The translations under genes were made by a program, and so were the position numbers. Of a stretch of DNA of 41,642 nucleotides, positions 6,098 through 38,399 are shown piece after piece; the stretch's first letter is position 1, and every line of letters starts with the position of its first letter. The notes beneath the pieces were generated by a model, which searched no databases, was not told the origin of the DNA, and was given only the letters and a program-made list of their open reading frames with translations. Source of the DNA: Alistipes sp. (GTDB lineage: Bacteria; Bacteroidota; Bacteroidia; Bacteroidales; Rikenellaceae); the NCBI GenBank assembly GCA_017555695.1, contig JAFZFX010000023.1, forward strand, positions 1-41,642, given 5' to 3'.

Positions 6098-6163
6098 TTT
6101 TTATTGAAATTATAGCCTTAGGCAAGAATTTTGGAGTCGTTTCAGGTGTAAACATTTTATACT

Positions 6164-6715: not shown

Positions 6716-6733
6716 CCGTAAATCGTATGAGTT

Positions 6734-18965: not shown

Positions 18966-19517
18966 TTACACTATATTCGGTAAATAATATATCGCAACTC
19001 CCGCTACGGCCGATAGGATAATTAGCAATATCGGATTTGCTTTTTTGTATGCCGCTACCATCGCCGCGATAAACAACGCCCAACTCCAACCGTCGATAAA
19101 ACTTGCGCCATCATTCGACTTGGGGAACATCAGTAGCAGTGCTGCCGCACCAATCATTCCTACCACTACGGGACGCATACCTGCTATTACACCCTTTACA
19201 TAGCTGTTGTCGCGCAATAGAATAAAGAATCTCGTTATGAGTATCATCAGTGTCAGTGCAGGTAGACATACCGCTACCGTTGCTACCACAGAGCCCCAAA
19301 AGCCTGCCACCGTATAACCAATATATGTGGCCGAGTTTATGGCTATCGGCCCTGGTGTCATCTGCGATATGGCCACGATGTCGGCAAACTCGGCATTTGT
19401 CATCCACTGATTCTGTACAACCACCTCGTTCTGTATGAGCGACAGCATTGCATATCCGCCACCAAAACCGAAGAAGCCAATCTTTAGATAACTATATAGC
19501 AACTGCAAATATATCAT
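18966..19517 (-). CDS. chrA: Chromate transporter family, short ChrA half (second gene)
   Basis: This 183-residue protein is a single-domain member of the CHR (chromate ion transporter) family. The signature YSYLKIGFFGFGGGYAMLSL opens the protein, followed by the conserved QMTPGPIAINSATYIGY loop and four to five hydrophobic segments. Short ChrA proteins work as hetero-pairs encoded by adjacent genes, as here. The real substrate may be chromate, sulfate or another anion. The open frame extends 39 codons further upstream, but the start at 19517 matches the family and overlaps the upstream partner by four bases (ATGA), which points to translational coupling. Confidence 0.88.
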   Translation of the reverse strand: MIYLQLLYSYLKIGFFGFGGGYAMLSLIQNEVVVQNQWMTNAEFADIVAISQMTPGPIAINSATYIGYTVAGFWGSVVATVAVCLPALTLMILITRFFILLRDNSYVKGVIAGMRPVVVGMIGAAALLLMFPKSNDGASFIDGWSWALFIAAMVAAYKKANPILLIILSAVAGVAIYYLPNIV

Positions 19518-20053
19518 CTCTCGACCTCCTTTCCTCTTGCGGCATACACCAATCCAACCACTGCACCCACTACCAAAATCAATACGGGTGAAACTCCAAA
19601 GTGCCATATAGCCAACGCCGCCACGGCCGCACAAACGGCTGCTACGCCATTCAGACTGCGAATGAAGCCTATTGCCGGTGCAAGCATCAATGCTACCACT
19701 ACGGGGCGTATGCCCTTGAATGCAGCATCTATTACGGGGTTTTGCCTAATCTGCGAGAAGAATATTGCAACGGTCAGTATAATCAAAAATGAGGGCAATA
19801 CCACGCCCGCCAGTGCTGTCAATGCACCTCGGTAGCCATACATCTTGTAACCGACGAATACCGATGTGTTTAACGATATGGGGCCTGGTGCCGACTGCGC
19901 AAGCGTCAGCAAGTCGAGAAACTCGCGTTTCTCAACCCACCCACGATTGTCAATCACCTCCTTCTGTATGATGGGTATCATTGCATACCCACCACCAAAG
20001 GTGAATACTCCAATCTTAAAGAATGATATAAACAGCCTTAAATATTTGTTCAT
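19514..20053 (-). CDS. chrA: Chromate transporter family, short ChrA half (first gene)
   Basis: The 179-residue partner of the downstream gene has the same family plan. FFKIGVFTFGGGYAMIPIIQ lies at the start, APGPISLNTSVFVGYKMYG at about residues 54-72, then several membrane segments. Together the two short proteins equal one full-length ChrA with two homologous halves, in the inner membrane. It follows the DUF5009 gene with three bases between stop and start, so all three genes are probably one operon. Nothing else nearby indicates chromate resistance, and in gut Bacteroidales the physiological anion is unknown. Confidence 0.88.
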   Translation of the reverse strand: MNKYLRLFISFFKIGVFTFGGGYAMIPIIQKEVIDNRGWVEKREFLDLLTLAQSAPGPISLNTSVFVGYKMYGYRGALTALAGVVLPSFLIILTVAIFFSQIRQNPVIDAAFKGIRPVVVALMLAPAIGFIRSLNGVAAVCAAVAALAIWHFGVSPVLILVVGAVVGLVYAARGKEVER

Positions 20054-24213: not shown

Positions 24214-25485
24214 ATGCTTACACTGAAACAGATCAGAGAAAACAAAGAGGTGGCCATTGCACGCTTGGCAAAGAAGGGCGTAGATGCCACATCTATAATA
24301 GCTAAAATCGAGGAGTTGGACGACAAGCGTAAGGCCGTTCAAGCCGAGTTGGATAACTGTCTTGCCGAGCAGAATGCTGCCGCTAAGCAGATTGGCGCAC
24401 TTATTGGACAGGGCAAGAAGGAGGAGGCCGAGGAGAAGAAGCGTTTTGTGGCTTCGCTCAAGGCTCGTTCAACCGAGCTTGCTGCCGAGCACCAGGCTGT
24501 TGAAGGCGAGTTGCAGTCACAGATCGTGCTGTTGCCTAACTTCCCTGCCGATATCGTCCCCGAGGGTCGTACAGCAGAGGACAATGTAGTTGTTAAGTTG
24601 GTTGAGAATGGCTCAACACTTCCCGAGAAGGCTCTTCCTCACTGGGAGTTGGCTTCGAAGTACGACATCATCGACTTCGACTTGGGTGTTAAGCTCACAG
24701 GCGCTGGTTTCCCCGTATATAAGGGTAAGGGTGCGCGTCTGCAGCGAGCTTTGATTAACTACTTCCTCGATTGCAACACAGCGGCGGGCTATCAGGAGGT
24801 TGAGCCTCCTGTATTGGTAAACGAGGCTTCTGGTTTCGGTACTGGTCAGTTGCCCGATAAGGAGGGTCAGATGTATCACGCTACGGCTGATAACTTCTAC
24901 CTCGTACCTACAGCCGAGGTTCCCGTGACTAACATCTTCCGTGATGTTATTCTCGAGCAGAGTGAGTTGCCCGTCAAGATGACTGCTTACACTCCCTGCT
25001 TCCGTCGTGAGGCTGGTTCTTATGGTAAGGATGTGCGTGGCTTGAATCGTCTGCACCAGTTCGATAAGGTTGAGATCGTGCAGGTTGCTTTGCCCGAGAA
25101 CTCATACGAGGCTTTGGATGGTATGGTAGCTCATGTAGAGTCTATCGTGGCTTCACTCGGTTTGCCTTATCGTATCCTGCGTTTGTGCGGTGGTGATATG
25201 TCGTTCACCTCTGCTTTGACATACGATTTCGAGGTTTACTCACAGGCACAGCAGCGTTGGTTGGAGGTATCTTCAGTCTCTAACTTCGAGTCATTCCAGG
25301 CTAACCGTTTGAAGTTGCGTTACCGTGACGACAACCGCAAGACACAGTTGGCTCATACGCTCAATGGTTCGTCTTTGGCTCTGCCTCGTATTGTAGCTGC
25401 CTTGCTTGAGAATAATCAGACCGAAGAGGGAATCCGCATCCCTGAGGTCTTAATTCCTTACACAGGCTTTGATATTATAAAATAA
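24214..25485 (+). CDS. serS: Seryl-tRNA synthetase
   Basis: This class II synthetase (423 residues from the chosen start) attaches serine to tRNA-Ser. The N-terminal coiled-coil arm covers about residues 1-110 (MLTLKQIRENKEVAIARLA, then charged heptads such as EEAEEKKRFVASLKARSTEL). Motif 2 is PCFRREAGSYGKDVRGLNRL. Motif 3 is the C-terminal block ending GSSLALPRIVAALLENNQT. The serine-site segment VSSVSNFESFQANRLKLRYR is also present. The open frame reaches up to 24067, but the promoter at 24183-24190 and the family N-terminus place the start at 24214. The ferredoxin gene follows with its own promoter overlapping the serS end. Confidence 0.97.
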   Translation: MLTLKQIRENKEVAIARLAKKGVDATSIIAKIEELDDKRKAVQAELDNCLAEQNAAAKQIGALIGQGKKEEAEEKKRFVASLKARSTELAAEHQAVEGELQSQIVLLPNFPADIVPEGRTAEDNVVVKLVENGSTLPEKALPHWELASKYDIIDFDLGVKLTGAGFPVYKGKGARLQRALINYFLDCNTAAGYQEVEPPVLVNEASGFGTGQLPDKEGQMYHATADNFYLVPTAEVPVTNIFRDVILEQSELPVKMTAYTPCFRREAGSYGKDVRGLNRLHQFDKVEIVQVALPENSYEALDGMVAHVESIVASLGLPYRILRLCGGDMSFTSALTYDFEVYSQAQQRWLEVSSVSNFESFQANRLKLRYRDDNRKTQLAHTLNGSSLALPRIVAALLENNQTEEGIRIPEVLIPYTGFDIIK

Positions 25486-25497
25486 TTGCTATATTTG
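25468..25497 (+). promoter_or_regulatory. Ferredoxin promoter TTTG-N18-TATATTTG
   Basis: TTTG (25468-25471) and TATATTTG (25490-25497) flank 18 bases. The -33 part lies inside the last codons of serS. The ATG at 25552 is 54 bases downstream. Confidence 0.65.
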
Positions 25498-25551
25498 CAG
25501 TAGGAATTATTGAAAGAGAACTTTTTAACTTAACATAAAACAAACAAAATT

Positions 25552-25719
25552 ATGGCTTACAAAATTTCTGACTCGTGCGTTGCTTGTGGTTCTTGCATCG
25601 ACGAATGCCCTGTAGAGGCTATCTCAGCTGGTGATATCTATGTTATCGACCCCGATAAGTGTATCGATTGCGGTACTTGTGCAGGTGTTTGCCCCAGCGA
25701 GGCTATCTCTGCAGAGTAA
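25552..25719 (+). CDS. 2[4Fe-4S] bacterial-type ferredoxin
   Basis: This 55-residue protein is a classical clostridial-type ferredoxin. Two complete cysteine motifs are visible: CVACGSCIDECP (residues 9-20) and CIDCGTCAGVCP (residues 37-48). Each follows the CxxCxxCxxxCP pattern and is followed by an EAIS turn. Such ferredoxins carry low-potential electrons in the cytoplasm for fermentative enzymes such as pyruvate:ferredoxin oxidoreductase and hydrogenases. It has its own promoter and a perfect terminator, so it is a single-gene unit. Confidence 0.97.
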   Translation: MAYKISDSCVACGSCIDECPVEAISAGDIYVIDPDKCIDCGTCAGVCPSEAISAE

Positions 25720-25737
25720 ACTGAATCAGATTAGACT

Positions 25738-25772
25738 AAAAGAGCGACACCCTTGTGGAGTGTCGCTCTTTT
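25738..25772. terminator. Bidirectional terminator, perfect 13-bp stem
   Basis: AAAAGAGCGACAC (25738-25750) pairs perfectly with GTGTCGCTCTTTT (25760-25772) over a 9-base loop. The A and T ends make it symmetrical. It ends both the ferredoxin gene and the minus-strand gene at 25801. Confidence 0.92.
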
Positions 25773-25800
25773 GGTTTATGCCGTTGGGCTTTTGTCTTAC

Positions 25801-26382
25801 TTATGCGAGTAGGTCGGCCTCTACGCTTGCAATGATAGCGGGAGTGAGTACGCTTGCATCGTTCATTGCGATGGGCTTCTGTGCCTCTTCGGGCTTGGGC
25901 ATATCGTCGAACATTTTGCGATTGCGGTTAAACTCCTGCTTGGGGAAAGGCATCTGGCCACCCTGCTGGAACGGAGGACGCTGGAACTGAGGCTGCTGCG
26001 GGCCATTGTTGCGATTGCGGTGGCTCTGCACATTGAACTTGCCGAAGTTAGGGCGGGGAGCCTGCTGCTTCTCGTAACGCTCATACTGAGCCTCGTTGAG
26101 AATACCCTTCATATCTTTGTTGAAAGCCTCCTTCTCGGCCTTCATCTGCTCGCGACGCTCAAACTCCTTCTTTGTCTGCTTCAGACACAATTTGTAAACC
26201 TTGTCATACTGGTCGTTGCCGAGCAACAACTCCTGACGCATACGGTCGGCCTTACGCTTGGCTACCTCCTCTACAGTAGGGGCCTTGCGCTCCTTGGGCT
26301 GGTCGTTTGACTCGTTCTGCTGTGCAAATGATGCTACGCTAAACATTAACGCGATGAGCGAAAGATAAATTGACTTTTTCAT
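25801..26382 (-). CDS. Secreted DUF4890-type protein
   Basis: The 193-residue protein has a clear signal peptide (MKKSIYLSLIALMFSVASFA, then QQNE). A charged helical middle (residues about 35-110) follows, with repeated KADRMRQELLL and KEFERREQMKAEKEAFN patterns like CpxP/Spy-type periplasmic helix hairpins. A Pro/Gln/Asn/Arg-rich segment (about 110-165) then ends in a short conserved tail. This matches the Bacteroidetes DUF4890 group, which has no proven role. A periplasmic chaperone-like role is a guess from the CpxP-like helices. A TAGTTTTG element at 26423-26430 lies 40 bases upstream. Confidence 0.7.
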   Translation of the reverse strand: MKKSIYLSLIALMFSVASFAQQNESNDQPKERKAPTVEEVAKRKADRMRQELLLGNDQYDKVYKLCLKQTKKEFERREQMKAEKEAFNKDMKGILNEAQYERYEKQQAPRPNFGKFNVQSHRNRNNGPQQPQFQRPPFQQGGQMPFPKQEFNRNRKMFDDMPKPEEAQKPIAMNDASVLTPAIIASVEADLLA

Positions 26383-26422
26383 AACTGTTATTTTTTTAGA
26401 TTATTGCTTTGTTTCTTTGTCA

Positions 26423-26430
26423 CAAAACTA
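26423..26430 (-). promoter_or_regulatory. -7 element TAGTTTTG for the DUF4890-type gene
   Basis: The minus strand reads TAGTTTTG, matching TAnnTTTG, 40 bases before the ATG at 26382. I see no convincing -33 element. Confidence 0.45.
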
Positions 26431-26539
26431 ACGCAAAAAACAGCTTAAAAGATATGCCAATCGGGTGAATCGTCGTAAATGAGGGGTGAAGTGTCTGTCG
26501 AACGAGTTGAAATTTTCCCGCTCAGGCAATAATTATCGT

Positions 26540-27943
26540 CTACCAACACTCTATGCCGTCGTTGTCGGCAAACTCTTTGATGTCCTTTTTCGAGAATATG
26601 GGGTTGCGGCCTTCGCGCAACTGATGGCGATAATCGTCAAGCAGAATGATGGCCTCACGACCCAAGAATATTAATGCCACCAAGTTGCAAAGCGTCATCA
26701 GTGCCATCGTTACATCGGCAAGTCCCCACACGGTCTTTAGGCTCATCATAGCTCCCGCCATAACCATCGCACCTACTAGAAGACGATAGGTCGTCAGTAG
26801 GGCCTTTGACTGCGACATAAAGCGTATGTTTGCCTCGCCATAGTAGTAGTTGCCGAAGATAGAGCTGAATGCAAAACAGAATATGGCTACAGCCACGATG
26901 ATGCGTCCCGCACCGCCTATCTCCATTGTCAGAGCCTCCTGTGTGAGCTGAACGCCATCAGATGAATCTAATGATACACCGCTGGCAAGAATGATAAATG
27001 CTGTACTGCTGCAAATGATGAGCGTATCGGTAAATACGCCGAGAGTCTGAATCAAACCCTGCTTTACGGGGTGTGAAGTGGTGGCTGTCGCTGCGGCGTT
27101 AGGTGCAGAACCCATACCAGCCTCGTTGCTGAAGAGGCCACGCTTGATGCCCTGCATAACAGCGGCTCCCATACCACCGCCCACAATCTGCTCCAAGCCG
27201 AAAGCGCTGTCGATAATTTGACGGAATACTGCGGGCAGATGCTCGATGTTCAGTGCCACAACGACCATTGCTATGGCGAGGTAGCTGACAGCCATAAACG
27301 GCACCACGATGTTGCTCACTTTGGCTATGCGCTGAATACCACCGAATATAATTATCAGCGTCGAGACGGTCAGCACGATGCCCGTATAGAACTTATCAGC
27401 ACCAAACGCATTCTCCAACGCAGCACATATCGTGTTGCTCTGTACTGTGTTGAACGCAAAGCCGAATGTGACGATAATCAGTATGCAGAAAATTATTGCT
27501 AGCGGTCGGCATCGCATACCATACATTATATAATATGCAGGACCACCGATATATGAGTCCGACGAATGGCGTTTGTATAACTGCGCCAGCGTACTCTCCA
27601 CAAAGGCATTGGCGGCGCCTAACAGCGCTATTATCCACATCCAGAATGTGGCTCCAGGGCCACCAATCACGATGGCTGTAGCTACACCCGCCAGATTGCC
27701 TGTGCCGATGCGACTTGCCAACGAAACCACGAAGGCCTGGAATGGCGATATGCGCTTTGGCGCTTTGCCGTTTGTTGGCTTGTGCTTGTCATCACTTTGC
27801 ACCAGCAGACGACACATCTCACCTATCATACGGAACTGCACAAAGCGGCTGCGCAGCGTAAAGTAGGTGGCGCATATCAGCAGTGCGGCTATCATTACAT
27901 AGCCCCACAATATGTCGTTGGCCCAGTTGATGATGTCAAGCAT
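26540..27943 (-). CDS. AGCS family amino acid/cation symporter
   Basis: The 467-residue protein has about eleven membrane segments and the AGCS (alanine or glycine:cation symporter) landmarks: SLASRIGTGNLAGVATAI (about residues 74-91), GGPGATFWMWIIALLGAANA, then FVESTLAQLYK, and GLFSNEAGMGSAPNAAATA. It imports alanine, glycine or a similar amino acid with Na+ or H+ across the inner membrane. The start lies 12 bases after the stop of the small hydrogenase-like subunit on the same strand, with no terminator or promoter between them. It is therefore likely the last gene of that operon, an unexpected partner for such a complex. Confidence 0.92.
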   Translation of the reverse strand: MLDIINWANDILWGYVMIAALLICATYFTLRSRFVQFRMIGEMCRLLVQSDDKHKPTNGKAPKRISPFQAFVVSLASRIGTGNLAGVATAIVIGGPGATFWMWIIALLGAANAFVESTLAQLYKRHSSDSYIGGPAYYIMYGMRCRPLAIIFCILIIVTFGFAFNTVQSNTICAALENAFGADKFYTGIVLTVSTLIIIFGGIQRIAKVSNIVVPFMAVSYLAIAMVVVALNIEHLPAVFRQIIDSAFGLEQIVGGGMGAAVMQGIKRGLFSNEAGMGSAPNAAATATTSHPVKQGLIQTLGVFTDTLIICSSTAFIILASGVSLDSSDGVQLTQEALTMEIGGAGRIIVAVAIFCFAFSSIFGNYYYGEANIRFMSQSKALLTTYRLLVGAMVMAGAMMSLKTVWGLADVTMALMTLCNLVALIFLGREAIILLDDYRHQLREGRNPIFSKKDIKEFADNDGIECW

Positions 27944-27955
27944 AGTGGCTGTGGG

Positions 27956-28729
27956 TTATCGTTGTTTCTTGCCCGTTATATTCATTACTCCATCGATGAA
28001 TGTCATCGGGTGTGTGGGTGCGCCAGGCAACCACAAATCCACGCGGTTATTTTCAATGAAGCTGCGATCTACGGCCTTACTCTCGCTGAAGAGTCCGCCC
28101 GAACAAGCCTCCGAACCACATACGATAACAATCTTCGGGTCGGGGATGGCCTTGTAGCAAATGTCGAGTGGCTCGGCCATATTTTTCGATATGGGGCCCG
28201 TGATAACAACACCATCGCTGTGGCGAGGTGATGCCGTAAACTCCACACCATAGCGGCCGAAGTCAAAGTTCACATTACCCGTTGCGTTTAGCTCCATCTC
28301 CACCGAAGCATCTCCTCCTGCCGACACCTGTCTAAGTTTCAGCGCGTGCGAAAAGAGCTGCGGAATCTCTGGACGGATGTTTTCGGGGTGGAACTCAATT
28401 TTCTCGGTCTGGGGTGTCACGACGAGTGCTTCGCGCGATGTGCTACCCAACTTATAGTCGTTTGTAAAGCGAATGTTCTTTGGCGCACGCAATGCACATT
28501 CACCGCAGAAGAGGCAACGACCCAAGTCGAGTGTAAAGGGTGCGACGCTCAACGCTTGGGTGGGGCAGAGCGTCGCGGCAGCCTCCACATCCGACATATC
28601 ATCCGTAGGTGTAAGTACGGGGCGGCCACGGAACTCCTCGGTCAGTGTAACATCGTTCAAGTCGGGTATATACTGTTTGCCGTGTGAACGCAGAACTTTT
28701 ATCTTTGAAAATATCATAGTTGTATCCAT
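27956..28729 (-). CDS. Fused ferredoxin/NuoB-like small subunit of a hydrogenase-related complex, degenerate cluster sites
   Basis: The 257-residue protein fuses a HyfH-like ferredoxin domain (about residues 40-90) to a HyfI/NuoB-like small subunit (about 125-250). The ferredoxin domain keeps C55, C72, C75 and C78, enough for one [4Fe-4S] cluster. The last cysteine of CxxCxxCxxxCP is Ala82, and the first motif is reduced to LCP. In the NuoB-like domain the CxxC of the proximal cluster reads AGGDAS (G138 and A141), the PGCPP cysteine reads PGAPTHP (A237), and only C209 (EACSGG) is kept. That domain cannot bind a normal proximal cluster, so electron transfer to an active site is unlikely. It starts six bases after the large subunit. 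Confidence 0.85.
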   Translation of the reverse strand: MDTTMIFSKIKVLRSHGKQYIPDLNDVTLTEEFRGRPVLTPTDDMSDVEAAATLCPTQALSVAPFTLDLGRCLFCGECALRAPKNIRFTNDYKLGSTSREALVVTPQTEKIEFHPENIRPEIPQLFSHALKLRQVSAGGDASVEMELNATGNVNFDFGRYGVEFTASPRHSDGVVITGPISKNMAEPLDICYKAIPDPKIVIVCGSEACSGGLFSESKAVDRSFIENNRVDLWLPGAPTHPMTFIDGVMNITGKKQR

Positions 28730-28735
28730 TTACTT

Positions 28736-30253
28736 TTATAGGTCGTGACCACAATACGAAAGGTTGAAACTTTTGTTGCAAATCGGGAAGTCTGAGATTC
28801 CCTCGCCTCTTACGGCCAGCGCCAACGCCAGCCAGTTGTGCAAGCTCGGCTCCTTCACCTTATATGTATCAATCTTGCCCTCCTCGTTGGTGATGGCTAT
28901 GTGGCAGATCTCACCTCGCCATCCCTCTACCAAACCAAATGCAAAGTGCTCGGGTGCGAGTGTCTGCTCATAGTTAGGTGCGGGTACGGCCTCGGTGGTG
29001 TCGATTGTCGCAAGCAACTGCTTGATGTACTCTACCGATTGACTCACCTCCTGACAGCGCATCATAAGTCGTGCCATCACATCGCCATCGTGCTGTGTGA
29101 TGCTCTCGTGATTGAGTTTAGTTGAGTATGCCGCGAAGGGGTGTGATGTGCGCAAATCGCGACCAAGTCCGCTTGCTCGTGCTGCCATACCTACGCCACC
29201 GATGCGATGCATCTCGGTGCGGGGAACTATGCCACACTGCTCGAAACGCGAGAGTAGGGTGGGCGAACTCTTTATGTCGTCGCTTACCTCCGCATAACGG
29301 CGGCCAACCTCCTCCACATTCTTGCGAATCATCTCTATCTTTTCGCTTGTCAGCGGCTTGTTGCTACCAGCAGGGCGAATCAAACCCTTGCCAAATCGGT
29401 TGCCACACCACGCCTGTGTGGTGTTGATGGTGACTGTTCTCAGCGCCTCACACGCAACTTGTCCGAGCTGATAACCTACATCCATCGACAATGCGCCCGT
29501 ATCGGCAATGTGCATAGCCATACGCTCCAACTCAAGAGCAATGGTGCGCTCGGCCTGCAGACGCTGCGAGGTCTTGTTGTTAGACAATCTCTCGACTGCC
29601 ATAGCAAAAGCCGACGAGTGTGCAATGGCGCTATCACCCGCGATGCTCTCCGATAGAAGAGTCTGACGCAAACGGTTATCGGTAGCAACGAACTCATCCT
29701 CTACGCCTCGGTGCTGATAGCCCAACGCAATCTCCAGGTGCAAAACATTCTCTCCGTTACAAGTGAAACGGAATGCACCCGGTTCGATGATACCTGCGTG
29801 GATAGGACCCACATTCACCTCGTGCAGAGAGTCTCCTTCAATCGAGTAGAAGGGGTATGTGTCGATTGTTGATGTGCGGCAACGGCGGTTCTCGTCAAAA
29901 CGCAACGGCTTCTTCCAGGGCATAGCGCCAAACTCCACATTGTAGAGCTCGGCTATCTCGCGCTCGAAGGGGTGTACTGCAGGGTGCAGAGCCGTGAGCG
30001 ACGGCAACGCTATGTCGTCGTAATACTCCATAGCAAATCGTGCCACCATAATCTGATGCTTCTCGTCATCGAGCAGAATGAGGTAGAACATCAGTCGAGA
30101 CTGCTCGGGACGGGCAAAGTAGTGGGCAATGTGATACTGCTCCTGCTTCAGACGCTCGCTCAAATCCTCATACAAGGCTGCATACTCCACTTCGGGAATA
30201 TCTTTCAGGGCGATTGACTGCGTCGATGTGTTATCAGTTATATAGTAATTCAT
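28736..30253 (-). CDS. NuoCD/HyfG-like large subunit without Ni-Fe ligands (Ehr type)
   Basis: The 505-residue protein joins a NuoC-like domain (about residues 1-120, with HPFEREIAELYNVEFG) to a NuoD/hydrogenase large-subunit domain. Landmarks are VGPIHAGIIEPGAF (about 148-161), EIALGYQHRGVEDEF and SESIAGDSAIAHSSAF (201-216). True group 4 [NiFe] hydrogenases have ICGxC at this place and DPCxxC near the end. Here they read IAGDS (A205, S208) and FPICNKSFNLSYCGHDL (C492 and C501 not in CxxC). No CxxC occurs anywhere in the protein, so it cannot hold the Ni-Fe site. This is the pattern of energy-converting-hydrogenase-related (Ehr) complexes, whose reaction is not established. Confidence 0.88.
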   Translation of the reverse strand: MNYYITDNTSTQSIALKDIPEVEYAALYEDLSERLKQEQYHIAHYFARPEQSRLMFYLILLDDEKHQIMVARFAMEYYDDIALPSLTALHPAVHPFEREIAELYNVEFGAMPWKKPLRFDENRRCRTSTIDTYPFYSIEGDSLHEVNVGPIHAGIIEPGAFRFTCNGENVLHLEIALGYQHRGVEDEFVATDNRLRQTLLSESIAGDSAIAHSSAFAMAVERLSNNKTSQRLQAERTIALELERMAMHIADTGALSMDVGYQLGQVACEALRTVTINTTQAWCGNRFGKGLIRPAGSNKPLTSEKIEMIRKNVEEVGRRYAEVSDDIKSSPTLLSRFEQCGIVPRTEMHRIGGVGMAARASGLGRDLRTSHPFAAYSTKLNHESITQHDGDVMARLMMRCQEVSQSVEYIKQLLATIDTTEAVPAPNYEQTLAPEHFAFGLVEGWRGEICHIAITNEEGKIDTYKVKEPSLHNWLALALAVRGEGISDFPICNKSFNLSYCGHDL

Positions 30254-30258
30254 AATCT

Positions 30259-31665
30259 CTACAAAGTTGATATTGTGTCGATAATCTCTTTAAGCGGAGC
30301 GGGTTGCCAGAGGCCAATTATGATTGCTCCGATAAGCAAAATAAGTGCACTGTATGACAGACGGCGGTTGATATTCGAGATGTGTAGCTCGTCCTGATTA
30401 GGCTGATAGCACAATTTGATAATGCGCTGACATACCGAATAGATTACAATACACATCAGCAACATCATCAGCGCTGTCAGCCACCAGTTGCCAGCTGTGA
30501 TGGTCTCGGCCAAAATCATCAGCTCCGACACGAAGAGTGGCGAGGGCGGGAATGCCAATATCACCACCATTCCAGCCATCAAGCCTATTGCGCCCACTTT
30601 GTTGATATTGATGTAGTCGCCGATACGGTTGATACGATAGCCGTTGTAGATGTGGCGCACAATACCAATCTGCAGGAAGAGGCTGCTCTTAATCAGCGAG
30701 TGGCACACCACATGGAATACTGCGGCCCATACGCCTATGCCACCAATACCCAAACCGATGGCTGCGATACCCATATTCTCTACCGTAGAGTACGAGAGGA
30801 ATCGCTTGTAGTTGTTTGTTCGGCGCAGGAATAATGCACCCACGATGAGGCTCAATACTCCAGTTGCGAGTATCACATTCTTCACCCAATCAAATACGGG
30901 TGTGTCGGCAAAGAGTTTATATATGCGGAAGATGGCCAAGAATCCAGCATTGACCAGTCCCGTAGATATCATAGCTGACGCGGGCGCAGGCGCTGCAAAG
31001 TTGGCATCCACACCGATAGTATAAAGCGGGAAAATCTCCATCTTACAGCTGTAACCCGTCAGAATCAGGATAAACGCCACCTTCAAATAGAGGGGGTTGC
31101 CGTTTGCCAAAAGTGTCTTCAATTCTGTATAGTTCAGCGATGCATTTTCGGCAGCGGCGCACAGCAGCAAGATGCCCAAATATGCAATGGCAATACCTGT
31201 AGAACATACGAACAGATACTTCCAAGTTGCCTCAAGCGTGGGCTTCGAGCGGCGGTAGTAGAGTATTCCTGCACCGCAGAGTGTTGTGGCCTCCAATAGA
31301 ATCCAAGTGATTGCAACATTGTTGGCAAAATATACACCCGTGATGGCTGTAGTGAGCAACATCAATAGCGAGAAGTAGAGTCTGTAATGCTCGATAGCAT
31401 CATCTTTCAAGTACTCCTCCGAGTGGCGGAATACGAAAAGTGCAACTATTGCCAGCAGTATGTAGAATAGTGTACCAGCCTCGTCGAAGGTGAAGAATGC
31501 ACCCGATGTCGAGAGGTATCTGCCTCTGAATAGCAGGCTGTCGATAAATACTGCGTGGATAGTAAGGTAGCATCCGCACAGAATATGAACCATTCGGCGT
31601 GAGCGCGCAACGAGTGTCGATGCGGCTGTTGCGAGCCATAATGCAAAGAATATATATATGTTCAT
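30259..31665 (-). CDS. HyfF-like antiporter-type membrane subunit
   Basis: The 468-residue protein belongs to the Mrp/NuoL-M-N antiporter-like family and has about 13-14 membrane segments. It is most like HyfF of group 4 complexes. Residues expected for ion pumping are kept: E125 in ITWILLEATTLCG, K208 in TGYSCKMEIFPLY, and the histidine/lysine segment HVVCHSLIKSSLF (about 325-337). It starts six bases after the HyfE-like gene and its stop lies five bases before the large-subunit gene. It is the second of two antiporter-like subunits in this operon; E. coli Hyf has three (HyfB, HyfD, HyfF), so HyfD is missing here. Confidence 0.88.
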   Translation of the reverse strand: MNIYIFFALWLATAASTLVARSRRMVHILCGCYLTIHAVFIDSLLFRGRYLSTSGAFFTFDEAGTLFYILLAIVALFVFRHSEEYLKDDAIEHYRLYFSLLMLLTTAITGVYFANNVAITWILLEATTLCGAGILYYRRSKPTLEATWKYLFVCSTGIAIAYLGILLLCAAAENASLNYTELKTLLANGNPLYLKVAFILILTGYSCKMEIFPLYTIGVDANFAAPAPASAMISTGLVNAGFLAIFRIYKLFADTPVFDWVKNVILATGVLSLIVGALFLRRTNNYKRFLSYSTVENMGIAAIGLGIGGIGVWAAVFHVVCHSLIKSSLFLQIGIVRHIYNGYRINRIGDYININKVGAIGLMAGMVVILAFPPSPLFVSELMILAETITAGNWWLTALMMLLMCIVIYSVCQRIIKLCYQPNQDELHISNINRRLSYSALILLIGAIIIGLWQPAPLKEIIDTISTL

Positions 31666-31671
31666 AATCTT

Positions 31672-32304
31672 TTAGTCCTTTACATGAGTTAATGAATCAC
31701 TGTCGTCGGCGTGAATCTTGTCATCCACTTTGGTGAGAAACATTCCGAGCATAAGAATCGAGATGAGGATATCGAGCATAATTGCCATATTGATAAGTAT
31801 CGGCATCTCAACTCCGATAGCCATCGAGAAGAGGAATACTCCATTCTCGATTACCAGGAATCCCACAACATGAGTGAAAATTCTTGAACGCATCACAATC
31901 AATATAAGTCCGCTCAGCAGTGCATACAGCGCAACGCCAAAGAAGAGCATATGTACACGCGAGTCGGCTACATAATAGGTGGTAACGGCGCTCACCACAA
32001 GTGCTGCAATAGAGAGCATCTGTGAGTTGAACTGCGACGAACTCGACGAAGTGCTTACACGGTTGATGTTGGTCTTCTTGATTACATTCATCAGGATGGC
32101 AGGCACAACGATGGCCTTAAAGATGAGTGTCTCAAGAATTACAAAACCCAACTCCACCCAATTCAGTGTATGAAGCTGCAGAAGGGCAATGCCCAGCAGA
32201 ATCCAGCCCTGCACAGCAATGATTGAAGTGTAGTTGCGGAAACGCTCTACGGTTGAAAGGTATATGAGCGTTATGACATACAATATAATAAGTGTCAAAA
32301 CCAT
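31672..32304 (-). CDS. HyfE-like membrane subunit
   Basis: The 210-residue protein has about seven membrane segments. Its C-terminal region, GFLVIENGVFLFSMAIGVEM (about residues 149-168), has the ENG/ENA pattern of NuoK/MrpC-like proteins that are part of HyfE. It likely links the antiporter-type subunits in the membrane arm. The C-terminus ends in a charged tail (KVDDKIHADDSDSLTHVKD). It lies four bases after the HyfC-like gene and six bases before the HyfF-like gene, which fixes it within the operon. Confidence 0.85.
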   Translation of the reverse strand: MVLTLIILYVITLIYLSTVERFRNYTSIIAVQGWILLGIALLQLHTLNWVELGFVILETLIFKAIVVPAILMNVIKKTNINRVSTSSSSSQFNSQMLSIAALVVSAVTTYYVADSRVHMLFFGVALYALLSGLILIVMRSRIFTHVVGFLVIENGVFLFSMAIGVEMPILINMAIMLDILISILMLGMFLTKVDDKIHADDSDSLTHVKD

Positions 32305-32308
32305 AGCC

Positions 32309-33223
32309 TTAGATGTTGATGTTTAACTGCAGCAGGAAGCCGATGAAGAATATCAATGCCGCCAATGCCGAGATGGTTACTATAAATGTGGTGTTACGCA
32401 ACAACTTGTTACGAGCCTGTGTAGACTCCACAACGCCTACCGATACACCCGTAAGCAATATCGCAAGCGGAGTGGCCAGCCACCAGTGGAAACAGCCCGT
32501 TGCTGCAATAGCGTTTGCTGCAAGCATCGAGAGTGATGCAGTCTTGAGCCATCCTGCAATCTGAATCATAGCCATATCCACACCGCAGTAGTCCAGACAC
32601 ATCACCTCGTGAATCATCGTCAGCTCGAGGTGTGTGCGGGGATCATCCACGGGAACACGGCCCGACTCTACGAATGTAATTTTGATGAACAGATACGCTG
32701 TCAGCAACATCACTATAGTCAGGTGAATATTCAACGACTGCTCGTGGGCGAAGATGTCAGCGAATGATGTGTAGCCGCAGAACATAGCCAACGTAGCGAA
32801 GCCAATCATCATAGCAGGCTCGATGAGCGCACCATAGAGCGCCTCGCGCGATGCTCCCATACCCTCGAATGAACTGCCTGTATCCATAGCCGCCAGAATC
32901 AGTGCTACGCGACCCAACGCCAACAGATAGGCGAAGCATATCACATCACCCTCAAACGAAATGAGAGGGTAGAGGTCCGCAACGGGAATAAATAACATTG
33001 CCACTATGGCCGCACCAAGATATACGGCGGGCGCTATCTTGAACAGCGCAGTTGTAGTGGTTGAATATACAGCGCCCTTACGCAACATCAGGCGTGCGTT
33101 GTAGATATGCTGAAGGAAGGGCAGACCCTTACGGCCAGCCAGGAGTGCGCGTGTGCGGTTAATCACTCCCGTAATCGATACGGCAACAATCAGCATTAAA
33201 AGTGTATTTAGTGCTATACCCAT
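32309..33223 (-). CDS. HyfC/NuoH-like membrane subunit
   Basis: The 304-residue protein has about eight membrane segments and is the NuoH/HyfC/EchB-type subunit that joins the peripheral arm to the membrane arm. Signatures are SFEGMGASREALYGA (about residues 118-132) and VESGRVPVDDPRTHLELTMI (185-204), followed by HEVMCLDYCG. The acidic residues used in coupling (E186, D193, D194, E200, E206) are kept. Its stop lies four bases before the HyfE-like gene and its start two bases after the HyfB-like stop, so translation is probably coupled. The intact coupling residues contrast with the lost metal sites of the peripheral subunits. Confidence 0.88.
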   Translation of the reverse strand: MGIALNTLLMLIVAVSITGVINRTRALLAGRKGLPFLQHIYNARLMLRKGAVYSTTTTALFKIAPAVYLGAAIVAMLFIPVADLYPLISFEGDVICFAYLLALGRVALILAAMDTGSSFEGMGASREALYGALIEPAMMIGFATLAMFCGYTSFADIFAHEQSLNIHLTIVMLLTAYLFIKITFVESGRVPVDDPRTHLELTMIHEVMCLDYCGVDMAMIQIAGWLKTASLSMLAANAIAATGCFHWWLATPLAILLTGVSVGVVESTQARNKLLRNTTFIVTISALAALIFFIGFLLQLNINI

Positions 33224-33225
33224 AA

Positions 33226-35214
33226 TTAGATGATATTAAGGAGTGAAAGAATAAATATCGCAACCAGGAATAACAACGCAAAGAGAATGTAGTGGTTGAT
33301 CTTTCCCGTTCTGAGTCGCATAATGCGCTTGTTGATGATGTGTAGCAACTCTACCCACCACTCAGTGAAGAGTCTGTCAATCTTATCCTTATGGCGCACA
33401 TCGTAGTTGTGTGCCGAGGGGAAAATCTCGCTCTTGCTTACAGCACGACCCTCTACTGTGTTCTGAGTGAGTGATGTGGCTACTGCCTCCAGGTTCTCGG
33501 AGAATGACTCTCCAGTATACTGCATACGGATGTTGGGCGATGTGAAGCCGCAACCCCAAGTGGGACCACTCTCTACGGTGCGCTTACGCAATGCACGGCT
33601 CTTGATAACATAGAGCAGCGCAATCACCAGAATTACCAGCAATGCTGTGAGCGAAACCTTACTCAAGGTGGGAGTGATGTAATCTCCGATAATGGCATCA
33701 GCCGAAGGTGTGAATAGCATTGTTACCTGCTTTACGGCGTTGATAGCAACCTGAGGTACGATACCTATCAGTATTATACCCGCCGTAGGTATAGCCATAG
33801 CCACCAGGCGTGTGCTGTCCACCTCTACAGACTCGGCAACGCTGTGATCGCGAGGCGAGCCAAGGAAAATGGTGCTATAGAGTTTTGTAAATGCAAATAC
33901 CACGATACCTCCAATGAGCGCCAACGCAATGATACCACCAGCCGCAGCCAAAGTATTCACTCCGTCGCGTACGCTGTTGAGCATACCCAGATAAATCATA
34001 AACTCACCTACAAAACCGTTGAGAGGTGGCAATGCGCATATTGCAGCCGTAGCAATCAAGAACAGAATTGCTGTCACGGGCATACTCTTCGCTACGCCAC
34101 CAAACATATTCAGGTGTGTAGTGTGCATTTGTGAGTAGAGGTTACCTGCGCCGAAGAAGAGTAGCGACTTAAACAACGAGTGGTTGATTGTGTGCATCAA
34201 TGCACCACACATCGCCAGCGTAGCCACGATGCTGTTGCCCGATGCCTGACCCAAAGCCGCAATGCCCAAGCCGATGAATATAACGCCGATATTCTCGATA
34301 CTTGAATATGCCAACAAACGCTTTACATCGTTCTGGAATGCAGCGAGGATTACGCCCCACAAGCCGGTAATGATACCTACAGCCAAAACAATGAAACCGA
34401 TGATTTGCAATTCGCTGTAGTCTTGTACCATCCATATAACTCTCAAGACTCCATATACACCCATCTTAATCATCACGCCCGACATAATTGCCGATACATG
34501 TGAGGGTGCTGCGGGGTGTGCCTCGGGTAGCCACACATGCATAGGAAACATACCTGCCTTCATTCCGAAGCCAAGCAGGAAGAGTACGAATAGCAATATA
34601 GTCTTGCCCTCAGCAAATGCCATGGGTAGAGCGCTGAATGCTGCCGAACCCGTAACTGAATGCAACGACGCGAAGCCCGCCACCAAGAAGATGAAGCCGA
34701 CATGCATCATAATCAGGTAGGCCAGCGCAGCACGCAGTACCTCAGCCTTTTGTGCGTCGAATATAATCAGTATGAACGACGCGATAGTCATCAACTCCCA
34801 CGCCAGCAGGAACGAGAAACCACCGCTCGACATCACCACCAGCATCATCGACAGAATGAGCGTCACCAACGCCACATAATGCAACGAGATGTGGGCCGAT
34901 GATTTCTTGCCGAGGTATTGAGCCAGGTAGCCACGCGAGTAGATGAGCGTCGCTATACCTGCTATACCTATAATCACCAGAAATAGAGCCGACAGAGGGT
35001 CGATAGAAAACCTCTCCACTCCGAAGATGGGGCCAGCGGCCTCGGCCAGAGTGATGGGTTTAGAGCCTGCAAGCACCGAGATGGCATAGCAAGCGACCGC
35101 TATCGCGGCAGTAGTTACAAATGCCAATGCCGTCCAGACTTTGTAGCGTAGCGGTGTGATAAACAGCGCTGCCACCAGCAAGGCAAGTGTCAAAAGTAAT
35201 CCGAGATAGAACAT
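33226..35214 (-). CDS. HyfB-like antiporter-type membrane subunit (first gene of operon)
   Basis: The 662-residue protein of the NuoL/HyfB type has about 16 membrane segments. Pumping residues are present: E140 in FLLAWELMTIAS, K219 in GFGMKAGMFPMHVWLPEAHP, K250 in SGVMIKMGVYG, and H345/K349 in HTINHSLFKSLLFF. A soluble loop near the C-terminus (about residues 555-640, with EGRAVSKSEIFPSAHNYD) precedes a last membrane segment, as in HyfB. It is the first gene of the hydrogenase-related operon, 92 bases after rsmE. I see no confident promoter in that gap, so read-through from rsmE is possible. Confidence 0.9.
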   Translation of the reverse strand: MFYLGLLLTLALLVAALFITPLRYKVWTALAFVTTAAIAVACYAISVLAGSKPITLAEAAGPIFGVERFSIDPLSALFLVIIGIAGIATLIYSRGYLAQYLGKKSSAHISLHYVALVTLILSMMLVVMSSGGFSFLLAWELMTIASFILIIFDAQKAEVLRAALAYLIMMHVGFIFLVAGFASLHSVTGSAAFSALPMAFAEGKTILLFVLFLLGFGMKAGMFPMHVWLPEAHPAAPSHVSAIMSGVMIKMGVYGVLRVIWMVQDYSELQIIGFIVLAVGIITGLWGVILAAFQNDVKRLLAYSSIENIGVIFIGLGIAALGQASGNSIVATLAMCGALMHTINHSLFKSLLFFGAGNLYSQMHTTHLNMFGGVAKSMPVTAILFLIATAAICALPPLNGFVGEFMIYLGMLNSVRDGVNTLAAAGGIIALALIGGIVVFAFTKLYSTIFLGSPRDHSVAESVEVDSTRLVAMAIPTAGIILIGIVPQVAINAVKQVTMLFTPSADAIIGDYITPTLSKVSLTALLVILVIALLYVIKSRALRKRTVESGPTWGCGFTSPNIRMQYTGESFSENLEAVATSLTQNTVEGRAVSKSEIFPSAHNYDVRHKDKIDRLFTEWWVELLHIINKRIMRLRTGKINHYILFALLFLVAIFILSLLNII

Positions 35215-35306
35215 TAATTTACTATTTTAATACAAACAAATTTTTATTAATAGATACCCTTTTCTTGAATCCGAAGGCTGAGTGAGAATCAAGTTAGCTC
35301 ATCTGC

Positions 35307-36017
35307 CTACTTGGTGTTTTCCACCGCCACCATCACCGTAGCTATCGTAGCTGCAGTCTCGGTGCGCAGGCGCTGCGTGCCGAGTGAGATTGCTTCGAAT
35401 CCATTTTCGAGCGCAAAATTAATCTCTTCGGGTGAAAAATCTCCTTCAGGGCCAATTAAAATTAAAACATTTTCGTTTTTGTTGATAATCGAGGGTAGAT
35501 ATCGGCGCTCACCCTCCTCCGAGTTGCAGTGCGCGATAAACTTTCGACCCTCAAAGCCCGATGCAATCACCTTTTTTACGGGTGTTAGTTCGTCGAGCGC
35601 AGGGTGGTAGGCCTTCAGCGACTGCTTTACGGCTGAGGTGATAACTCTGAACTCTCTGTCGTACTTAATTGTGCGTCGTTCGCTATGGTCGCACTCGATG
35701 GGGATAAAGCGCGTTACACCCACCTCGGTGGCTTTTTCCAAGAACCACTCAAAGCGCTCGATGTGCTTTGTAGGTGCTACGGCCATCGTCAGGCGGTAGG
35801 GCATCTTCTCCCACTCGCTTTTGGTCTCTATTACCTCTATGGTGCAGTGGTGCTGATGTGCCTCCACTATGCGGCATAGGTGTAAGTTGCCCTTGCCGTC
35901 AGTGATGTGTATCTGGTCGCCTTCGTGTAGGCGCAACACTCTGACACAATGTTTCGACTCCTCGTCGCTCAGTGTATAGAGCGGAGGAGTAATATCAGGA
36001 GCATAAAATAGTTGCAT
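35307..36017 (-). CDS. rsmE: 16S rRNA m3U1498 methyltransferase RsmE
   Basis: The 236-residue SPOUT-fold protein matches RsmE, which methylates N3 of U1498 in 16S rRNA. An N-terminal OB/PUA-like part carries HCVRVLRLHEGDQIHITDGK (about residues 23-42). The C-terminal knot carries LIGPEGDFSPEEI (about 185-197) and SLGTQRLRTETAAT (about 210-223), the SAM-binding loops of the family. The LEKATEVGV segment (about 93-101) is also typical. Its promoter overlaps that of the divergent M3 peptidase gene in a perfect palindrome. The HyfB-like gene lies 92 bases downstream on the same strand. Confidence 0.95.
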   Translation of the reverse strand: MQLFYAPDITPPLYTLSDEESKHCVRVLRLHEGDQIHITDGKGNLHLCRIVEAHQHHCTIEVIETKSEWEKMPYRLTMAVAPTKHIERFEWFLEKATEVGVTRFIPIECDHSERRTIKYDREFRVITSAVKQSLKAYHPALDELTPVKKVIASGFEGRKFIAHCNSEEGERRYLPSIINKNENVLILIGPEGDFSPEEINFALENGFEAISLGTQRLRTETAATIATVMVAVENTK

Positions 36018-36050
36018 ACTTTTTACTTAAATATTATCTTTGCAAAGATA
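36012..36050. promoter_or_regulatory. Overlapping divergent promoters in a 16-bp perfect palindrome
   Basis: TATCTTTGCAAAGATA (36035-36050) reads as a -7 element on both strands. The plus element (36035-36042) has TTG at 36012-36014 with a 20-base spacer and lies 25 bases before the ATG at 36068. The minus element (36050-36043) lies 25 bases before the rsmE ATG at 36017 and lacks a clear -33 box. The two promoters cannot both be occupied at once. Confidence 0.75.
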
Positions 36051-36067
36051 TTAAATATTAATAAGTA

Positions 36068-38344
36068 ATGAAACGCTTTTTTGGAATATTCGCAGTAGCG
36101 ATGATGATTATGACACTTTTTGGGTGCAACAAAACGGATAATGGGGTAGATAACCCATTTTTTGAGGCTGTGTGGGATACTCCCTACGGAGCTCCGCCGT
36201 TTGATAGAATTAAATTTGAACACTTCGAACCCGCTTTCGAGCAGGGTATGTCGTTGCAGAACGAGGAGATTGCAACAATCGTAGAGTCGAAGGAGGAGCC
36301 TTCGTTTGAGAATGTAATTTTGGCCTACGACAACTCTGGTGAGATGCTTTCGCGCGTCAGCCGTGTCTTCTCGATGCTTAACTCTGCAGAGACCAACGAT
36401 CAGATGCAGGCTCTGTCGGCCAAGTTAAGCCCGTTGCAGGCGGCTCACCGCGATGCAATAGCACTTAACGATATTCTCTTTCAGAAGATTAAGTCTGTAT
36501 ATGATAGGCGATTGGCTATGGACCTTACACCCGAGCAGTTGCGTCTGGTTGAGAAAATCTATGATGGCTTTGTGCGCTCTGGAGCATTGCTTGGCGAAGA
36601 GGATAAGGCTCGACTCAAGCAGATTAACGAGCAACTATCTGCTTTGAGCGTAAAGTTTGGCCAGAATCTTTTGGCTGAGACAAATGCCTCTACATTGGAG
36701 GTTACTCGCGAGGAACTTAATGGCGTTCCCGCCACTGTTCTAGATGCAGCCGAGGATCAGGCTCGCAAGATGGAGCGCGGCGAGGGAAAGTATGTCTTTA
36801 CACTTCATAAGCCAAGTATGTTGCCTCTGCTTACCTATGCCGAGAATCGCTCTCTGCGTGAGCAAATCTACAAGGCCTATATCTTGCGTGGTAACAACGA
36901 CAATGAGAATGATAATAAGTCGGTGATTGCCGATATTATTTCTCTGCGCTACGAGAAGGCTAAGCTCCTTGGCTATAAGACTTTCGCCGACTATGTTGTC
37001 TCTAACCAGATGGCAAAGACTCCCGAGGCTGTCTATAATCTGCTCGAGCAGGTTTATGAGCCCGCCCTTGAGCAGTCGAAGAAGGAGTTGGAGCGAATGA
37101 AGAGTATGTTCAAACGCGATGAGGGTAGCGATGCCGAGTTCGCCTCGTGGGATTGGTGGTACTACGCCGAGAAGGTTCGCAAGGCCGACTACGACTTGGA
37201 GGAGGAGAAGGTGCGCCAGTATCTCTCGCTTGACAATGTTAAGAGTGGTATTTTCTTCCTTGCTAACCGTCTGTATGGTGTTACTTTCCGTCCGCTGAAT
37301 GCTCCGCTGTATCACCCCGAGTGCGAGGTGTATGAGGTTGTCGATGGTGACGATAAACCTTTGGGTGCCCTCTATTTCGACTTCCATCCCCGTCCTGGTA
37401 AGCGTGCCGGTGCGTGGTGTGGAACATTCCGTCGCCAGTCGTATAAGGATGGCGAGCGTGTAGCTCCTGTGGTTAGCATCGTTTGTAACTTTACTCGCCC
37501 TTCGGGCAGTACTCCCGCTCTGTTGTCGATTGACGAGACCGAGACTATGTTCCATGAGTTTGGTCACGCCCTGCACAATCTCTTTGCTGATGTCAAGTAT
37601 CAAGGCTTGGGTGGCGTAGAGGGTGACTTCGTGGAGTTGCCTTCGCAGATTATGGAGAATTGGGTCTTCACCAGCGAAATGCTCAAGCAGTATGCTGTTC
37701 ACTACCGCACAGGAGAGGTAATGCCCGACGATATGATTGAGCGCATCCAGCGTAGTGCTAAATTCAATAAGGGCTTTACTACTACCGAGCTTGTTGCTGC
37801 AGCACTCTCTGATATGGATATCCACTCTGTTGCAAGCGCCGATAAGGTTGATGTTAATGCCTTCGAGAAGGAGTCTCTCATCACCAAGCGAGGACTTATT
37901 CCACAGATTGAGCCCCGCTACCACTACACCTATTTCAACCATGTTTTCAATAGCGGCTATTCGGCTGGTTATTATTTCTATATCTGGGCCGAGGTGCTTG
38001 ATAAGGATGCACACCGTGCCTTTGTCGAGAGTGGTGACCTCTTCAATCGCGATGTCGCCGAGCGTTTCCGTCGCGAGATTCTTTCGCGTGGTGGCGAGCG
38101 TGATGGTATGGATATGTACCGCGCCTTCCGTGGTGCCGACCCCGACAAGAACGCAATGCTCATTGCTCGTGGTTTGATTGATGAGTCAAATATGGAGTCT
38201 GCTGATGATAACCGCGTCCGCGAGGTGGGTAGGGTAGATACTCGTGCCCAGGCTCGTGCTCGTGCCGAGCGTTCGCGCCGCGAAAGAGCCGAGGCTCGTG
38301 CTGCGGCTGACTCATTAGCAAAGGCAGAGCCATCAGAGGAGTAA
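36068..38344 (+). CDS. M3 family metallopeptidase lipoprotein (Dcp/OpdA-like), first copy
   Basis: The 758-residue protein has a lipoprotein signal peptide with lipobox cysteine (MTLFGCNK, Cys20), so it is likely anchored to a membrane outside the cytoplasm. The M3 zinc site is HEFGH (H496-H500) in ETMFHEFGHALHNLF, followed by the third ligand in the downstream helix GGVEGDFVELPSQIMENW. The rest matches peptidyl-dipeptidase Dcp/oligopeptidase A enzymes, which cut short peptides. After the catalytic domain the last 40 residues are a charged Arg/Ala/Glu-rich tail (RAQARARAERSRRERAE) not found in its neighbour. It is the first of two tandem paralogues and has its own promoter. Confidence 0.92.
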   Translation: MKRFFGIFAVAMMIMTLFGCNKTDNGVDNPFFEAVWDTPYGAPPFDRIKFEHFEPAFEQGMSLQNEEIATIVESKEEPSFENVILAYDNSGEMLSRVSRVFSMLNSAETNDQMQALSAKLSPLQAAHRDAIALNDILFQKIKSVYDRRLAMDLTPEQLRLVEKIYDGFVRSGALLGEEDKARLKQINEQLSALSVKFGQNLLAETNASTLEVTREELNGVPATVLDAAEDQARKMERGEGKYVFTLHKPSMLPLLTYAENRSLREQIYKAYILRGNNDNENDNKSVIADIISLRYEKAKLLGYKTFADYVVSNQMAKTPEAVYNLLEQVYEPALEQSKKELERMKSMFKRDEGSDAEFASWDWWYYAEKVRKADYDLEEEKVRQYLSLDNVKSGIFFLANRLYGVTFRPLNAPLYHPECEVYEVVDGDDKPLGALYFDFHPRPGKRAGAWCGTFRRQSYKDGERVAPVVSIVCNFTRPSGSTPALLSIDETETMFHEFGHALHNLFADVKYQGLGGVEGDFVELPSQIMENWVFTSEMLKQYAVHYRTGEVMPDDMIERIQRSAKFNKGFTTTELVAAALSDMDIHSVASADKVDVNAFEKESLITKRGLIPQIEPRYHYTYFNHVFNSGYSAGYYFYIWAEVLDKDAHRAFVESGDLFNRDVAERFRREILSRGGERDGMDMYRAFRGADPDKNAMLIARGLIDESNMESADDNRVREVGRVDTRAQARARAERSRRERAEARAAADSLAKAEPSEE

Positions 38345-38399
38345 TCTCCGTTTCCCAAACTGACGATAACTTAAGAGACCAAAAAATAAATAAAAAATT

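Follow-up and report, generated by a model that had tools for sequence, protein, structure and literature searches.

An Alistipes operon encoding a probable Ehr complex without Ni-Fe or proximal iron-sulfur cluster ligands

Results and Discussion

Contig JAFZFX010000023.1 of an Alistipes sp. draft assembly, analysed over a stretch of 41,642 nucleotides (the window), carries on its minus strand six intact open reading frames (ORFs) that run from 35214 down to 27956 with intergenic gaps of 2-6 bases. They encode, in order, HyfB-, HyfC/NuoH-, HyfE-, HyfF- and HyfG/HycE-like proteins and a fusion of HyfH-like and HyfI-like proteins, and we consider it very probable that together they form a six-subunit energy-converting-hydrogenase-related (Ehr) complex, hyfB-C-E-F-G-HI, that has lost its electron wire. 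The cysteines of the Ni-Fe site and those of the proximal (N2-type) [4Fe-4S] cluster are all replaced, and the pump residues of the membrane arm are conserved. The nearest named relatives are in gut metagenome-assembled genomes labelled Alistipes or Rikenellaceae.

Loss of the Ni-Fe site

The large subunit (28736..30253, minus strand, 505 aa) is recognized by family matches and alignments as HyfG/HycE/NuoCD-like, with 30 kDa and 49 kDa domains. The references for the ligand-column alignments were the E. coli proteins HycG, HyfI, NuoB, HycE, HyfG, NuoCD, HycF, HyfH and NuoI and chains of the structures 6cfw, 7z0s and 2fug. The cysteines of the large subunit are at positions 125, 165, 268, 283, 340, 400, 450, 492 and 501, and this full list confirms the statement of the initial annotation that there is no CxxC. 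When aligned to HycE, HyfG, NuoCD and the structure chains all four Ni-Fe cysteine columns are changed, to A205, S208, S499 and G502; HycE VCGIC aligns to IAGDS, which the annotation had rightly placed at the site of ICGxC, and HycE CYSCTDR aligns to SYCGHDL. Cysteine occurs at column 205 in one of 103 large subunits (a partly motif-biased set, described below), at column 208 also in one of 103, and at columns 499 and 502 in none. Within the window's family these columns are free of cysteine in all 53 aligned large subunits, the window's own included, where no large subunit was obtained from nine of the 61 fetched loci and two of the 53 rows have gaps at columns 157-212, which take in 205 and 208. 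Residue D207 is common to the Ehr rows and missing from HycE, HyfG and NuoCD, and D207, S499, Y500, G502 and D504 are invariant in 71 aligned rows that include both N2-lost and N2-keeping forms.

The annotation also proposed a search of the genome for hypA-F; this was run for HypD, with HypA, B, C, E and F not searched, and gave no match in the window's genome (88% complete). HypD is likewise missing from 33 of the 44 complex-bearing genomes searched, counting the window's, and is present in 11. Family PF00374 has no match in the window's genome, and since it also misses the window's own large subunit this null says little on group 4 enzymes. With the Ni-Fe and proximal ligands gone and HypD not found in its own genome, the proposal that the complex is not a hydrogenase stands.

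Loss of the proximal cluster ligands

The last gene of the operon (27956..28729, minus strand, 257 aa) encodes, according to family matches and alignments, a ferredoxin-like (HyfH/NuoI) part fused to a small-subunit (HyfI/NuoB) part. Its proximal ligand columns, set by alignment to HycG, HyfI and NuoB and to the HycG and MbhJ chains, are 140, 143, 207 and 237, and these are occupied by D, V, E and A, such that four of the four ligands are lost; HycG GGCNGCE, GAC and PGCPP align to GGDASVE, GSE and PGAPT respectively. The initial annotation had reported three ligands lost, at G138, A141 and A237, with C209 left. The loss and the position of A237 are correct, but the other two positions lie two residues early and the count is four. 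C209 was rejected as a surviving ligand, as it sits two residues past the ligand column; at column 209, 88 of the 90 small subunits that do not belong to the Rikenellaceae gut clade have isoleucine. Neither did the possibility of an intact CxxC or PGCPP elsewhere materialize, as none is present in either of these two proteins, the ferredoxin motif described below aside. The ligand-column alignments thus bear out the view that no Ni-Fe or cluster ligand remains at the old active site.

In a table of relatives (from which L186, identical to L175, and L001 and L136, copies of the window, were dropped, and in which L194-L199 repeat genomes of L137-L146) the ligand sets are all-or-none. Rows have either all four cysteines or an aspartate or glutamate at 140, and the latter carry no cysteine except, in some rows, one at 143; none with two or three cysteines was tabulated. 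Column 140 is D or E in every N2-lost row tabulated and column 207 nearly always so; in the window's family both are D or E in all 62 rows, whereas 143 and 237 vary. Outside the window's clade D-C-D-N is found most often, a state that would suit a proximal cluster still built on carboxylate and amide ligands (D140, C143, D207 and N237). We think this quite improbable, as the window's clade mostly has V or I at 143 and A or T at 237, leaving two carboxylates, and 26 of the 90 rows from outside that clade also carry A, G, N, S, T or V at column 143.

The remaining cluster motif in the ferredoxin half

The initial annotation's account of cofactor loss holds for the old active site; the complex as a whole is not cofactor-free. 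C55, C72, C75 and C78 in the N-terminal ferredoxin part, which it does not mention, constitute one complete [4Fe-4S] motif, made up of motif two (C72, C75, C78) and the last cysteine of motif one (C55). By column we take this to be the N6b type of NuoI; N6a-type ligands are absent from the fused protein. All 110 small subunits of one set (80 of them from the motif-biased search) and all 62 family rows have the N6b-type motif. When 137 N2-lost rows were searched by pattern, none gave a complete motif one (13 apparent matches being motif two itself), with L049 and L193 unreadable, the latter lacking its ferredoxin half through a gene split over contigs; every readable N2-lost row thus lacks both the N2 ligands and the N6a-type set. 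Of 12 distinct N2-keeping rows from Bacteroidota, examined by reading, nine have the N6a-type set and three (L139, L141 and L145) do not, and N6a loss is therefore not tied to N2 loss.

Distribution of the loss

Genomes of the window's order, class, phylum and family were sampled without a motif filter. The complex, defined by a full family match, is present in 44 of 198 genomes of the order (contig-end fragments in G012 and G017 are not counted), and the tabulation of cysteines across Bacteroidales homologues that the annotation had proposed shows the N2 set to be lost in 43 of these, with L192 keeping it. The class sample yields 16 complex-bearing genomes of 395, including the window's own and one other of the order, and the set is lost in 13 of the 14 from the rest of the class, L179 keeping it. 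Twelve of 296 phylum genomes match at E < 1e-40, the window's own included and a second, weaker match in G462 with an internal stop left out; in the rest of the phylum only one of 11 (L135) has lost the set and 10 keep it. Finally, 62 of 150 sampled genomes of the family carry the gene, and none of the 62 small subunits (one per genome, with one of the two G945 copies taken) keeps the ligand set. The motif-biased set was gathered separately with patterns including NPxHPL, and comprises the best 80 of at least 543 relatives, leaning to N237 rows.

The annotation took close relatives with intact cysteines as a sign of a strain-specific lesion or sequencing error. Cysteine-keeping relatives do exist, mostly outside the window's order, and this points to an old loss and not a lesion. 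Moreover, dN/dS for the large subunit is 0.077, 0.101 and 0.122 in comparisons with L031, L032 and L039 (dS is saturated in all five small-subunit pairs and two of the five large-subunit pairs), and thus the operon is conserved with its large subunit under purifying selection. Pseudogene decay, an assembly error or a strain lesion might be entertained for a window that comes from an 88% complete draft assembly, but is scarcely credible given the intact frames, the purifying selection, and the loss of the set throughout the 62 family small subunits, which include some from single-contig genomes. The annotation's conclusion that the changes are not decay is well founded, being strengthened by the conserved antiporter residues noted below, and the changes are not strain-specific either.

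The loss is not general among Ehr complexes, for which loss of the Ni-Fe cysteines is the known hallmark. Plasmid-borne Ehr small subunits have all four N2-type cysteines in seven of seven cases (seven of 245 matching records, from Rhodococcus, Paraburkholderia, Methylocalor, Rhizobium, Methylovirgula, Azospirillum and Variovorax), and the Ni-Fe cysteines are replaced in all seven operons. Because these complexes lack the Ni-Fe cysteines and still have those of N2, the Ni-Fe loss came first. No report of N2-ligand loss in Ehr was found in the literature searched, a scope that does not extend to Marreiros 2013, reportedly the main Ehr paper.

In a large-subunit tree (all trees being quick ones) the N2-keeping fused Ehr are basal and the N2-lost rows lie above them, with L192 nested among the latter and L137 unresolved at the edge; the fewest N2 state changes on this tree is four. 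A topology in which the 28 N2-lost rows form a group apart from every other row, L192 included among the others, is rejected (p-AU 0.0008), and with L192 left out or added the N2-lost rows fall on one side of a branch with modest support of 70 and 71. In a small-subunit tree with the ligand columns removed, 27 fused N2-lost rows group with support of 93 and L192 is at the base of the fused group.

L192 (G162:C368:1-8000, 4275-6579) has a small subunit that keeps N2 and both ferredoxin cysteine sets, and a large subunit that groups with the N2-lost clade; from these sequences it looks like a mixed pair. By reading, no obvious membrane subunit (hyfB-F) is present among the four ORFs of at least 120 aa in its 8 kb. 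L135 (G206:C31) is an N2-lost copy from a genome not of the window's class; N2-keeping copies (L138 and L140) occur in the same family as that genome, and horizontal transfer is possible. L111 (G012:C386:500-8370, 40-7259) is a separate kind of Ehr in a Bacteroidales genome, with the small-subunit gene at the opposite end of the operon. Its N2 columns are D, C, D and D and neither the large- nor the small-subunit tree fixes its placement, such that the same ligand replacement may have happened twice by convergent loss.

The membrane arm and candidate coupling residues

The arm has the antiporter-type Glu/Lys/His/Lys/Glu residues. The HyfB-like antiporter-type subunit (33226..35214, minus strand, 662 aa) matches NCBIfam NF005086 (hydrogenase 4 subunit B) at 512 bits, under the cut-off of 667, and its pump residues E140, K219, K250, H345, K349 and E404 are conserved in 60-61 of 61 family rows. 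The HyfF-like antiporter-type subunit (30259..31665, minus strand, 468 aa; PF00361, and NF005044 under its cut-off) has E125, K208, H322, K326 and E381 conserved in 69 of 69 rows. The HyfC/NuoH-like subunit (32309..33223, minus strand, 304 aa; PF00146) keeps E135 and E200 in 65 of 65 rows and D193 in 64 of 65; its loop PVDDPRTHLELTMIHE has H198, and position 196 is mostly K or R, where E. coli HyfC and NuoH carry glutamate. The H198 loop is common to the other Ehr compared, and the THLELTMIHE loop was discarded as a mark of N2 loss since it is also found in N2-keeping Ehr. The HyfE-like membrane subunit (31672..32304, minus strand, 210 aa) matches NF008556 (hydrogenase 4 membrane subunit) at 3.4e-11, under the cut-off, and has no match in a Pfam search.

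Alignment also places large-subunit E157 at MbhL Glu21 and H212 at His75; D504 is matched to Asp379 by its spacing from the C-terminal cysteine columns, the structure-chain alignment stopping short of it. In readable family rows E157 is kept in 51 of 51, H212 in 46 of 51, and D504 in 53 of 53. MbhL Glu21, His75 and Asp379 figure in the discussion of proton transfer and coupling in Mbh (PMC11228991).

The hydrophilic core could instead be a mere scaffold or regulator of a stand-alone Mrp-like Na+/H+ antiporter, with a functionless cavity. The conserved antiporter residues would be expected on such a model, as would the two closest pairs (L031 and L032), in which HyfE, HyfF and HyfC are more alike than the large and small subunits. 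We nonetheless regard it as rather improbable, as the invariant large-subunit residues, and the D or E at small-subunit position 140 and nearly always at 207, would be needless in a passive scaffold.

Comparison with known systems

Three features place the complex among the Ehr. The HyfG/NuoD-like large subunit lacks the Ni-Fe CxxC motifs, as is described for Ehr (PMC6349859, PMC10284858, PMC4378227); a group-4-type small subunit shares one operon with a HyfB, HyfC, HyfE and HyfF arm; and the large subunit groups with those of plasmid-borne Ehr, 49 rows being separated from HycE, HyfG and L114 with support of 100 in a tree that is rooted on these three, has L114 on a long branch and includes no Geobacter Ehr. 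With the plasmid-borne complexes it shares the hyfB-C-E-F-large gene set and a NuoB-like small subunit, the replacement of the Ni-Fe cysteines by (S/A)GD(T/S) and Y(S/A)G, and a HyfC loop of the THLE(L/V)TM(I/V/L)HE type. It departs from them in lacking the four N2-type cysteines, which all those compared keep, and in having a one-cluster ferredoxin half fused to the small subunit, which they lack. Geobacter EhrL/EhrS (PMC7894505) are further named members of the Ehr; the sequence comparison here covers the plasmid-borne ones.

The gene order hyfB-C-E-F-G-H-I and the HyfB and HyfF pump residues are shared with E. coli hydrogenase-4/formate hydrogenlyase (Hyf/Hyc), but the window's operon is without hyfA, D, J and R, has no Ni-Fe or N2 ligands, and retains just one of two HyfH cluster motifs; nor was HypD found in its genome. 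The two CxxC motifs, HypD and proximal [4Fe-4S] ligands of group 4 [NiFe] hydrogenases are thus all wanting. Pyrococcus MBS is likewise a complex I superfamily member without Ni-Fe ligands, but it keeps a three-cysteine proximal cluster as catalyst (PMC7684303), whereas there is no cysteine ligand at that place here.

Complex I (Nuo) has a homologous NuoB/C/D/H/L/M/N core, also without Ni-Fe cysteines. The window's complex differs in having neither N2 ligands in its NuoB-like part nor an N6a motif, and no NuoF module or separate NuoF was found in the genome (88% complete). The columns of Nqo4 Tyr87 and His38, which we take to be quinone-site residues, are G206 and I156 in the window; His38 is also discussed in PMC11228991. 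The single PF01512 match in the window's genome lies about 0.6 kb from one of two NqrB/RnfD-type genes. We read it as RnfC, and the genome as having Rnf plus Na+-NQR, and redox-driven pumps therefore seem to exist elsewhere in the cell.

A proposed role in ion transport

Electrons in complex I, MBH and MBS reach the substrate or the Ni-Fe site from the proximal cluster, the last of the iron-sulfur clusters on their path, and in complex I and MBS this cluster acts directly on the substrate after the Ni-Fe loss (PMC7684303). As the proximal cysteine ligands are gone here, the Ni-Fe and the proximal-cluster mechanisms are both unfit as they stand. The reading we favor, with about even confidence, is a complex I-superfamily machine in which the electron wire has been cut back and the ion arm kept, for non-redox or redox-gated transport. 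The electron path to the membrane arm would have been removed in steps, Ni-Fe first and N2 later, leaving the ion-translocating arm, in which HyfB and HyfF may move or exchange H+ or Na+. The old Ni-Fe/N2 cavity, predicted to be polar and acidic (E157, D207, H212 and D504 of the large subunit; D140 and D/E207 of the small subunit), could serve as a proton- or ligand-binding coupling site and not as an electron terminus, and the surviving [4Fe-4S] cluster as a redox sensor, a gate or a structural element. The gate might then be the acidic cavity, through binding of a proton or a ligand, or else the redox state of the remaining cluster. To this last component, non-redox or redox-gated ion transport as deduced from sequence, we give a little under even weight. 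The non-redox or regulatory ion-translocating role that the initial annotation suggested is compatible with these data.

Several observations weigh against this reading. The clustering of acids in the cavity is predicted by homology, the column of MbhL Lys24, the partner of Asp379, is A160 in the window and histidine in most relatives shown, and the new site is not fully fixed, column 207 being alanine in three of 110 rows and column 237 A, T, N, H or S within the window's family. L192, in which the large subunit is of the lost type and the small subunit keeps N2, is a further difficulty. An invariant ferredoxin-type motif is odd if redox plays no part, and C450, arising with the N2 loss, could be part of a new metal site. 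For other Ehr the published work favors redox roles, with greater abundance of Ehr in Geobacter on formate (PMC7894505) and a proposed electron path from formate dehydrogenase to Ehr (PMC6349859).

An alternative, unlikely though deserving of attention, is that the complex is still an electron-transfer enzyme. Its electrons would come from reduced ferredoxin by way of the N6b-type cluster and end at a different acceptor, or at a new cavity site in which C450, C492 and C501 might take part. The invariance of the N6b-type motif, the redox roles proposed for other Ehr (PMC7894505, PMC6349859) and the appearance of C450 with the N2 loss all speak for it. C450 is present in 99 of 109 N2-lost rows outside the near clade and in 19 of 20 within it, as against one of nine fused N2-keeping rows. 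(In the cysteine counts the biased set contributes to the 116 and 109 distant N2-lost rows; the fused rows that keep N2 comprise 10 small and nine large subunits.) However, C492 and C501 are variable, occurring in 87 and 95 of the 109 lost rows outside the near clade, and the three cysteines form no CxxC. Judging from complex I structures, the distance between N6b and the old cavity should, without N2, be longer than the usual tunnelling range.

More broadly, a whole, widespread branch of the complex I/group 4 hydrogenase superfamily might be a redox-independent ion-translocating machine, with N6a lost along the way, the terminal site rebuilt as an acidic site for ligands or protons, and the drive or gate something other than electron transfer into that site; we give this broader view somewhat less than even odds. 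It has long been asked how complex I links electron transfer to proton pumps at a distance, and a conserved natural complex that lacks proximal ligands and yet retains its pump residues offers a direct way to learn which parts of the coupling machinery need redox chemistry at all.

Flanking genes

Flanking ORFs of at least 90 aa, taken from 4 kb downstream and from as much as 2.5 kb upstream if the locus extended so far, were clustered across 80 loci. No flanking-ORF family is present in more than 20 of the 80, and this clustering, made without a family-library search of the clusters, provides no redox partner beside the operon. An Rfam scan of 25000-36200 gave no match. Upstream of the operon is rsmE, and downstream agcS (sodium:alanine symporter, 26540-27943) begins 12 bases beyond the operon's end; agcS is downstream in five of the 80 relatives, some of these loci being too short to reach that position. 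In ten of the 80 loci (L064, L070, L071, L079, L088, L089, L090, L093, L095 and L096) another antiporter-like ORF, 419 aa or longer and truncated at the locus end, lies immediately upstream of hyfB, which suggests operons with three antiporter-type subunits in those ten.

Elsewhere in the window there are two gene pairs. At 18966-20053 is an adjacent pair of chromate-transporter half-proteins (PF02417), whose ORFs overlap if the first start codon is right, and 36068-40523 is occupied by a tandem pair of M3 peptidase genes.

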